DNA of 36,124 nt from an uncultured bacterium (lineage in GTDB: Bacteria; Cyanobacteriota; Vampirovibrionia; Gastranaerophilales; Gastranaerophilaceae), in assembly GCA_902797985.1 (NCBI GenBank), contig CADBUZ010000023.1:1-36124 (forward strand), given 5' to 3'. Positions 15,374-17,138 of the stretch are shown piece after piece. Under the pieces are notes generated by a model. The model ran no database searches, was not told the DNA's origin, and saw nothing but the letters and a program-made list of their open reading frames with translations. Each line of letters begins with the position of its first letter. The first letter of the stretch is position 1. Both the position numbers and the translations under genes were made by a program.

Positions 15374-15982
15374 ATGTTAAAAAGAAAATGCAAAATTACA
15401 TTTATATCTCACGGTGAAACTGTATATTCTCAAGAAGGCAGAATATCAGACTCAGAAAAATACCCTCCGTTGACTGAAAATGGACAGGAAGAAATTGAAA
15501 AAGTATGTGAATATTTAAAAAAACGTGGAATTAAAAACGATAAAATATTTACAAGTCCCGCTGTCAGATGTATTCAAAGCGTTGAACCAATAACAAAATT
15601 ATTCAAAAAAGATTTTGAAGTTTTGGATAATTTATATGTTAGAAAATGCGGATGTTTAAACGGAAAAACATTTGAAACAGTTTCAAAACAATATTCTGAT
15701 GATTTCCCGACAATAGCAAACATAGATGTAAAAGATTGCGAAAAACTTGTAGATTTTAACAAAAGAGTACTGGATGAGATAACAAAATTAGTAAAATCAA
15801 ACCTTAACTCAAGATTGATAATAGTGACCTATCCAATGGTAATACAGTCAATAGTTGCACAAATTTTAAACGTAGAACCTAAAGATCAATATAAAATCCT
15901 AATAAAAACAGGCAGTTTGACGCAAATAAGTTTTTTTGAAAACTGGGCAAGCTTAATCTACTCCGGATATGTTCCGTTGTAA
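15374..15982 (+). CDS. Degenerate histidine phosphatase (phosphoglycerate mutase fold)
   Basis: 202 residues after AAAGAGG. The fold is recognisable: I-S-H-G-E-T at 11-16, the D-x-E-K-Y-P-P-L-T-x-x-G-Q-E substrate segment and T-S-P-A-V-R-C-I-Q-S. However, the first Arg of the R-H-G motif is Ser12, and the second catalytic His, normally in S-H-G near the C-terminus, is replaced by T-Y-P (Tyr153). His13 and the middle Arg remain. The missing residues suggest a non-catalytic family member with a binding or regulatory role, or decay. Its TAA stop is the first three bases of a MITE-like element, so the C-terminus may have been set by the insertion. It is divergent from the TPR gene. Confidence 0.8.
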   Translation: MLKRKCKITFISHGETVYSQEGRISDSEKYPPLTENGQEEIEKVCEYLKKRGIKNDKIFTSPAVRCIQSVEPITKLFKKDFEVLDNLYVRKCGCLNGKTFETVSKQYSDDFPTIANIDVKDCEKLVDFNKRVLDEITKLVKSNLNSRLIIVTYPMVIQSIVAQILNVEPKDQYKILIKTGSLTQISFFENWASLIYSGYVPL

Positions 15983-16134
15983 ATTAAAGTTTAGCAAACG
16001 AAGTTTGCTAAACAGTGAATAGGTGAATAGTGAATAAGTGACTAAGTATAAATCTTATTCACATAGTCACTTAATCACTTAATCACTTAATCACTTTAAA
16101 GTTTATCGAGCGAAGCTCGATAAACTTTAATTTA
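15980..16134. mobile_element. MITE-like palindromic element, copy B
   Basis: Same build as copy A at 353-538. It has perfect 14-base terminal inverted repeats (TAAATTAAAGTTTA at 15980-15993, complement at 16121-16134), one base different from copy A. The left hairpin GTTTAGCAAAC-GAA-GTTTGCTAAAC spans 15989-16013. The left arm carries 7-8-base GTGAATA-type units (about 16013-16045) and the right arm five 8-base units (16055-16094), three of them TTAATCAC. The right hairpin AGTTTATCGAGC-GAA-GCTCGATAAACT spans 16100-16126. It has no coding capacity. The inner repeat word differs completely from copy A while the ends are conserved. Confidence 0.75.
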
Positions 16135-16489
16135 AACAAATCTTGCTTTTTAAAAAGGGCATGAAAACTGATAACATGCTAACTTTTTTACAAAAGTTAA
16201 TAAAAAATGAAATCATGGAAACATGCACCATGCATGGGTTTCCATGTTTTAATATCAAGCAAACCATGTAATACTCTCATGTACAGAGAAATCAAAAGCA
16301 GGTGTTTCAGTAATAGCGTGGGTTATAGTGTCTTGAAAACACTTGTAATAATCGTTTACAAACCTCTTGTAATACCGCACTTAATCAATATAATGATAAT
16401 AAGGGTAAGACCTAATGGAATGGCGGAGAGCCATTGGGATAGTTGATAATATTAAAGAATAATTGATTATATAATTTTGGAGGAATATA
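16135..16489 (+). other. Gene-free structured region, candidate noncoding RNA or leader
   Basis: No credible gene (a 79-codon frame at 16207-16446 lacks a ribosome site). It holds a series of hairpins: GCATG...CATGC (16159-16179), AACTTTT-TTAC-AAAAGTT (16181-16198) and a 14-pair two-part stem CATGGAAAC...GTTTCCATG with inner ATGCA-CCA-TGCAT (16214-16246). It continues with TTGTAA...TTACAA (about 16343-16360) and AATGGC-GGAGA-GCCATT (16419-16435). The last lies in the leader of the small gene at 16490 if the promoter at 16367-16394 is real. The region precedes hpf (raiA) by one gene. The raiA-motif RNA family is known near such genes, but I do not recognise its consensus here. Confidence 0.45.
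16367..16394 (+). promoter_or_regulatory. Probable promoter of the small Cys protein and hpf
   Basis: TTGTAA (16367-16372), 16 bases and TATAAT (16389-16394). An upstream direct repeat, TTGTAATA, occurs at 16343-16350 and 16367-16374. Confidence 0.5.
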
Positions 16490-16708
16490 TTGTTTAGAAG
16501 TCGTGATATGGGGAGAGCTGTTGCGGTAAGACGATGGACAACGACCGCTATTGAGTGCTATAAACGTGGTTGCAATTGTGAAGGATGTTTCTATAACGAT
16601 TTCTTCAGTGGTTCGTATCAAAAATGCCAAATGAAAGCTTCTGTGCTTGAATTGGTAAGAGTGATAGGAACTCCTGATGTAGATTTACCTCAAGTTATAG
16701 GAGATTAA
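16490..16708 (+). CDS. Small conserved-looking cysteine protein, unknown function
   Basis: 72 residues starting at TTG, because a strong GGAGG lies 6 bases upstream and no ATG fits. A basic N-terminus (R-R-W-T-T-T-A-I-E-C-Y-K-R) is followed by a compact Cys set C-Y-K-R-G-C-N-C-E-G-C and then Q-K-C-Q-M-K, ending with an LELVRVIGTPDVD helix. The Cys spacing (C-x4-C-x-C-x2-C, then another C) suggests a zinc or Fe-S site, and the end looks like a small helix-turn-helix. I vaguely associate such short proteins with Melainabacteria and Firmicutes but know no function. It lies 61 bases before hpf, possibly in the same transcript. Confidence 0.75.
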   Translation: MFRSRDMGRAVAVRRWTTTAIECYKRGCNCEGCFYNDFFSGSYQKCQMKASVLELVRVIGTPDVDLPQVIGD

Positions 16709-16711
16709 CAC

Positions 16712-16740
16712 TTTAAAAATATAAAAACTTAGTGTATAAT
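16712..16740 (+). promoter_or_regulatory. Possible promoter of hpf
   Basis: TTTAAA (16712-16717), 17 bases and TATAAT (16735-16740), 29 bases before the hpf ATG. The -35 is weak. Confidence 0.45.
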
Positions 16741-16769
16741 AAAAATGGTACATTATTTTGGAGGCATAA

Positions 16770-17138
16770 ATGCACATTCACGTAAATGGTAAAAACATTG
16801 AAATCACTGATGCTATCAAGGCATACGTTAAAGAAAAATTAGGTAAAGTAGCAAATCACTATGATCAAATTACAGCAATAGACGTTATTCTTACTGTAAT
16901 TAAAAATCCTGCTGCTTCCGGTAAATATATTGCAGAAGTTTCTTGCAAACTTAACGGAAAAAATATTCACGTTGAAGTTTCAGAAGATGAATCTATGTAT
17001 GCAAGTATTGATTTGGTTGCAGATAAATTAGACAGACAAGTAAAAAAATTCAAGGACAAATCTTTATCTTCAGGTAAAGGTTCTATCAGAAATGTTGTTG
17101 AAGAACCTGATACAGAAGAAGAACTTGAAGAAGTATAA
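16770..17138 (+). CDS. hpf: Ribosome hibernation promoting factor (short form)
   Basis: 122 residues with the beta-alpha-beta-beta-beta-alpha fold of the HPF/RaiA/YfiA family: M-H-I-H-V-x-G-K-N-I-E-I-T opening, I-K-x-Y-V-K-E-K-L, V-D-V-I-L-T-type strand and the D-x-Y-A-S-I-D-L-V-A-D-K-L-D-R-Q helix. It binds the 30S decoding centre and silences or stores ribosomes in stationary phase. It lacks the long C-terminal dimerisation domain of the Gram-positive long form and ends in an acidic tail. GGAGG precedes the ATG. A strong terminator follows. It is downstream of the small Cys protein. Confidence 0.95.
   Translation: MHIHVNGKNIEITDAIKAYVKEKLGKVANHYDQITAIDVILTVIKNPAASGKYIAEVSCKLNGKNIHVEVSEDESMYASIDLVADKLDRQVKKFKDKSLSSGKGSIRNVVEEPDTEEELEEV

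Follow-up and report, generated by a model that had tools for sequence, protein, structure and literature searches.

A helically phased CATG array with a promoter as the probable control region of a small Cys-protein gene in Gastranaerophilaceae

The gene-free gap at 16135-16489 is, with a probability of roughly 0.8, a transcriptional control region of the gene for a small Cys protein, composed of a phased array of CATG half-sites, the putative operator, and a promoter. The window, i.e. the whole stretch of DNA that we analysed, is 36,124 nucleotides long and represents contig C23 of a 1.86 Mb genome. In the window, a histidine-phosphatase-family gene is followed by a repeat of ~ 150 bp (15985-16130), the gap, and the Cys-rich ORF at 16490-16708. 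The features relevant to this reading are:

15374-15982, histidine-phosphatase-family gene, upstream neighbour of the repeat and the gap
16173-16200, + strand, distal conserved block AACATGCTAAC-TTTTTTACAAAAGTTAA, probably a protein-binding site
16214-16246, + strand, 33-bp putative operator CATG-N4-CATG-N7-CATG-N6-CATG, the 14-pair stem of the first-pass annotation
16261-16281, + strand, second CATG cluster AAACCATGTAATACTCTCATG, with CATG at 16265 and 16278
16340-16363, + strand, promoter-proximal dyad CACTTGTAATAATCGTTTACAAAC, probably the site of a second regulator
16367-16394, + strand, sigma-70-type promoter TTGTAA-16-TATAAT, 10 of 12 consensus matches
16395-16489, + strand, predicted 5' leader of the small Cys-protein mRNA, from the promoter position and the SD sequence GGAGG
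16419-16435, + strand, leader hairpin AATGGC-GGAGA-GCCATT, with compensatory changes in the genus
16436-16449, + strand, GGGATAGTTGATAA, conserved single strand 3' of the hairpin
16490-16708, + strand, small Cys protein of 72 aa with a TTG start, the gene that the gap seems to serve
16770-17138, + strand, hpf (ribosome hibernation factor), Ribosomal_S30AE, PF02482, E 9.3e-24

Orthologues of the gap were present in six of the seven other genomes of the genus, with 70-81% identity, and the only match to the gap in its own genome was the gap itself. In the alignment of seven congeneric gaps, near-invariant blocks were located at approximately 16173-16200, 16214-16246, 16261-16268 and 16340-16372. 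The -10 hexamer (16389-16394) and leader segments around 16436-16480 were also nearly invariant, and the sequence between the blocks varied freely. The first-pass annotation saw no credible gene here, and we agree: the 79-aa ORF at 16207-16446 has no match in Pfam or NCBIfam. The search of the phage collection gave no match, and PHROGs returned two weak matches, both to families of unknown function.

The array itself was analysed in the DNA upstream of 144 orthologues of the Cys-protein gene (142 from the family sample, plus G001 and G007), 140 of which had at least 420 bp. CATG occurred on average 8.06 times per 360 bp, compared with 1.59 in dinucleotide shuffles, and was above expectation in 138 of the 140 regions. 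For comparison, the 330 bp 5' of dnaA in 30 family genomes had 0-4 CATG each. The 355-bp gap holds 9 of the 64 CATG tetramers of the window. With one genome taken per genus (40 genera), the spacing between CATG copies had a period that peaked at 10.5 bp, i.e. one DNA turn. The phasing resultant was 0.397, against a mean of 0.063 and a maximum of 0.135 in 500 trials of a jittered null, which ignores the shared ancestry of the genera. The half-sites are thus repeated at the helical period of DNA, and this phasing, together with the occurrence of the 33-bp site in both orientations, is as expected of protein-bound DNA. Most regions without the 33-bp site upstream (73 of 81) still have at least five CATG; in g13, g33 and g41, the genomes that were sampled have 0-3 per region. 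Within the second CATG cluster, AAACCATG (16261-16268) was invariant across the seven congeneric sequences.

The consensus of the 33-bp site is CATGnAAwCATGCnCnnnnCATGGnTTTyCATG. A search with the CATG-N4-CATG-N7-CATG-N6-CATG skeleton, allowing at most one mismatch, found 64 sites, spread over 63 of the 146 family genomes and 23 of the 41 genera, whereas the control gave one match in total. The skeleton is nearly always found once per genome in these 63 genomes, and 60 of the 64 sites are located 231-404 bp upstream of the orthologous small Cys-protein gene. Genus g19 accounts for two of the remaining sites, at 322-325 bp downstream of the start of the Cys gene, and the one in G100 lies elsewhere, away from that gene. 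The last, in G091, sits on a contig other than that of the gene; its sequence equals that of the site listed at the start of the gene's contig, and an assembly overlap is the probable cause. Several positions that the search pattern leaves free are nevertheless fixed, namely A6, A7, T27 and T28 in 62 of 62 sites, T26 in 61 and C13 in 60. Relative to the gene, the site has the same orientation in 19 cases and the opposite one in 43 (62 cases), and both orientations are mixed within genera g11, g14, g23, g25 and g40.

The blocks on either side of the array are conserved as well. Most columns of the distal block were invariant in the seven congeneric sequences, and similar blocks can be recognised by eye upstream of orthologues, with a TTTACATTTCTTAA-like variant in other genera. 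The promoter-proximal dyad was nearly invariant in the same seven sequences, and TTTACA/TTGTAA is enriched over the full upstream regions (mean 2.05 vs 0.59 in shuffles). The promoter-like site was found exactly where the first-pass annotation had placed it. In 128 of 143 orthologous leaders, a search biased towards TATAAT recovered this hexamer at the corresponding position, so that the count is an upper estimate; the -35 and -10 elements of the sigma-70 promoter lie at a conserved position.

The Cys protein is almost universal in the family. It had matches with E ≤ 1.2e-33 in 142 of the 146 genomes, and the remaining four gave weaker matches only. It had no match in Pfam, NCBIfam or the PDB sequence search, and its AlphaFold model (mean pLDDT 40.6) is unusable. 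Two paralogues are encoded in the same genome (L157 1507-1731 and L158 1447-1653, 43% and 37% identity), one of which adjoins an ORF resembling, by eye, a LexA-type repressor; other families of the class have homologues with an identity of roughly 37-44%. Downstream of the Cys gene, hpf was found in only 89 of 144 cases within the fetched DNA (at most 700 bp per genome, often ~ 560), and it has a promoter-like site of its own at 16712-16740. The nearest upstream ORFs, on both strands, formed 58 clusters among 97, an upper bound because many of these ORFs are cut off where the fetched sequence ends. Since the upstream ORFs vary and hpf was not always found downstream, the control region seems to follow the Cys gene. 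The position near hpf/raiA had reminded the first-pass annotation of the raiA-motif RNA, although it did not recognise the consensus; from the above counts, the nearness to hpf looks incidental and the link to that RNA accidental.

The gap is indeed rich in hairpins, as the first reading claimed. The centroid fold of the gap contains ten top-level helices, which include those at 16159-16179, 16181-16198, 16208-16251, 16275-16289, 16298-16346, 16356-16372 and 16419-16435. The two-part 14-pair stem at 16214-16246 is also present, with nine pairs, a 2-nt bulge and five pairs. The folding energy of the gap is only mildly unusual, with z of -2.04 on the + strand (equalled by 4 of 100 shuffles) and -1.61 on the - strand (6 of 100). 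In the Rfam covariance scan of the whole window, no family reached its gathering score. At E ≤ 10, 15950-16800 had 23 matches, from which raiA, OLE and 6S were absent, leaving a raiA-like RNA unsupported. Twelve of the 23 were microRNA families, mostly over the neighbouring repeat; the best match, MIR5274 (E 0.0024), scored 27.5 bits vs a gathering score of 100.

If the gap were a new structured ncRNA or a long riboswitch-like leader, its hairpins would be RNA stems. The folding of the gap speaks for this reading, as do the mean z of -1.79 for RNA folds of the CATG region (40 genus representatives), a terminator-like scan match at 16232-16247, overlapping the 33-bp site, and the modest covariation of the leader hairpin described below. 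A DNA dyad, however, would also give the better-than-shuffled fold of the CATG region. An RNA stem should covary at its variable positions, but in the seven congeneric sequences the large stem had no covariation above shuffles (11 of 19 pairs never vary), and only 1 of 46 pairs in the consensus fold of the whole gap was compensatory. Among 60 distinct 33-mers, the variable stem positions paired in 33-60%, at or near the shuffled level except for position 5/29 (0.47 vs 0.38 in shuffles, p 0.023). Inner-spacer pairing in quadruple sites was slightly in excess (0.668 vs 0.631, sd 0.015), which could stem from shared ancestry. Moreover, the CATG sites occur in both orientations with 10.5-bp phasing, and the conserved promoter sits downstream of them. 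We consider such an RNA quite unlikely. The first-pass annotation had left a choice between a new ncRNA and a cis-regulator; the phased, two-orientation CATG sites argue for the latter, and the lack of an Rfam match and of stem covariation argues against the former. The leader alone is a different matter, as 16395-16489 might be a small cis-acting RNA (hairpin and GGGATAG) that adjusts Cys-protein translation, a reading compatible with the operator and one to which we give a little less than even odds. The AATGGC-GGAGA-GCCATT hairpin was found as annotated, within the leader predicted for the downstream gene, whose start point would follow from the -10. Four of its six pairs showed compensatory changes in the seven congeneric sequences, and 66.7% of the cells were paired. 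The covariation score was 0.341; shuffles gave 0.224, with 30 of 500 at or above the observed score, and slid registers gave at most 0.151. The mean stem before GGG[GA] was 5.2 across genera vs 4.0 in shuffles, and GGGG was present in 101 of 143 leaders vs 54.9 expected; GGGATAGTTG was present in six of the seven congeneric sequences and missing from G003. Leader folding had a mean z of -0.95 in 41 genus representatives. On the other side, one third of the hairpin cells are unpaired within the genus, an individual stem p ≤ 0.05 was reached in only 5 of 30 genus representatives, 35 of 143 leaders have no usable GGG[GA], and in a second genus just 1 of 16 pairs was compensatory.

Two further explanations concern the DNA itself. 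Instead of an operator, the 33-bp element might be a dif-, parS- or ter-like site for chromosome maintenance, present once per genome, as it is quasi-palindromic, occurs about once per genome and is found in both orientations. However, 83 of the 146 family genomes do not have the element in this form, the number and spacing of the boxes vary, the element goes with the same gene while the upstream neighbours differ, and CATG arrays are multi-copy in some other families, where some precede pilin-like genes; a maintenance site is therefore very improbable. The repeats in the gap might also be remains of a mobile element, as the ~ 150-bp dispersed repeat ends at 16130, directly 5' of the gap. This repeat has at least ten long copies in the genome, itself included, with 80-100% identity and in both orientations; with its terminal hairpins and AGTGAATA/TCACTTA repeats, it appears MITE- or REP-like. 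The gap, however, is single-copy and kept at its orthologous place in the genus, so decay of a mobile element, which the first-pass annotation named as a possible refutation, does not account for it and is hardly credible.

CATG arrays are not confined to this gap. In the same genome, CATG pairs at 10-11 bp numbered 26 vs 10 in the reversed control, several of them coding. Other intergenic arrays precede an uncharacterised repeat-rich protein (L164) and yggS-sepF (L165); another (L161) is located just downstream of a mini-RNase III-like gene, so that not every array precedes a nameable gene. The dnaA promoter region (L159 1484-1580; C2:40788 of the same genome) likewise holds a CATG array, accompanied by a TTTACA..TTAA element. 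The dnaA array is not generally conserved and was missing from most of the 29 relatives read: among 30 dnaA loci, the own genome included, from 58 matched genomes, the upstream 330 bp contained 27 CATG in total, with four in two genomes, three in one and 0-2 elsewhere. Triple CATG arrays exceeded the control in 52 of 58 relatives and did not in the other six. Four genomes from other families of the order, chosen for their high triple-array counts, had 9-27 such arrays vs 0-1 in the control, many of them near-copies. In four of eight loci read (L341, L353, L344 and L356), multi-copy arrays lie upstream of ORFs whose starts look prepilin-like (GFTLAE/GFSLAE), and the one ORF of the four that was checked, at L341, carries the N_methyl motif. 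From the arrays in other families, a CATG-reading regulator may be older than Gastranaerophilaceae. Intergenic CATGTT..AACATG pairs were also seen around position 1500 of L249, L250, L254 and L258, often near uncharacterised genes, with several adjoining TTAAGA or TTTACATTTCTTAA; they perhaps represent a related regulon.

MraZ boxes, AbrB sites and MetJ/Arc-type ribbon-helix-helix operators consist of short half-sites repeated every ~ 10-11 bp upstream of a promoter. The CATG array resembles these phased multi-box operators in its half-site period, which suits an oligomeric regulator. It differs from them in its CATG core, its A/T-rich spacers and its 8-11-10 arrangement, and its 33-bp form has effectively one conserved target gene in the family. 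Cyanobacterial HLR1/RpaB sites are boxes of OmpR-family response regulators. The TTTACA..TTAA and TTGTAA..TTTACAA elements described here resemble them, with a spacing that, judged by eye, does not match HLR1 exactly. With the raiA-motif RNA (PMC11706538), the gap shares an hpf/raiA gene nearby in the window; it differs in having no covariance match, in seeming to serve another gene, and in a main stem without covariation. The gap also resembles the leader of lrtA, the cyanobacterial HPF gene (PMC4956104), as probable non-coding regulatory sequence close to hpf in a relative of the cyanobacteria. The leader in our case, however, is that of the Cys-protein gene, and a separate promoter-like site precedes hpf. 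Among the papers listed in the literature searches, none dealt with this operator or with CATG arrays in the lineage.

Based on these observations, we propose that an oligomeric DNA-binding protein would read the CATG half-sites aligned on one face of the helix. It would nucleate at the 33-bp site, ~ 120 bp upstream of the -35, and spread from there over the neighbouring phased CATG boxes. Factors bound at the TTTTTACAAAAGTTAA block and at the promoter-proximal TTGTAA..TTTACAA dyad would act jointly with it, so that the CATG regulator and at least one further factor would adjust the sigma-70-type promoter. Since the 33-bp site and the promoter do not overlap, we slightly favour activation or looping over repression. 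The upstream hairpins would then be DNA dyads, leaving the small hairpin that precedes GGGATAG in the leader as the sole plausible RNA element, with a possible role in tuning translation or stability. A more specific proposal is that an undescribed DNA-binding protein has the array as its operator. This protein might be the 72-aa Cys-rich protein, which would then regulate itself, and the related CATG codes before the pilin-like genes of neighbouring families would form its wider regulon. An autoregulatory circuit would agree with the finding of nearly one site for one gene over 23 genera; we regard this proposal as speculative and rather unlikely.

The case also carries a caution, in that dyads in AT-rich intergenic DNA may be mistaken for structured RNA unless their orientation, phasing and covariation are examined. 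For the uncultured gut Gastranaerophilales, the gap provides a precise and testable putative operator with an unusually fixed code, tied to a small protein that is almost universal in the family. The 33-bp site, with its known sequence, could serve as bait to identify a regulator.
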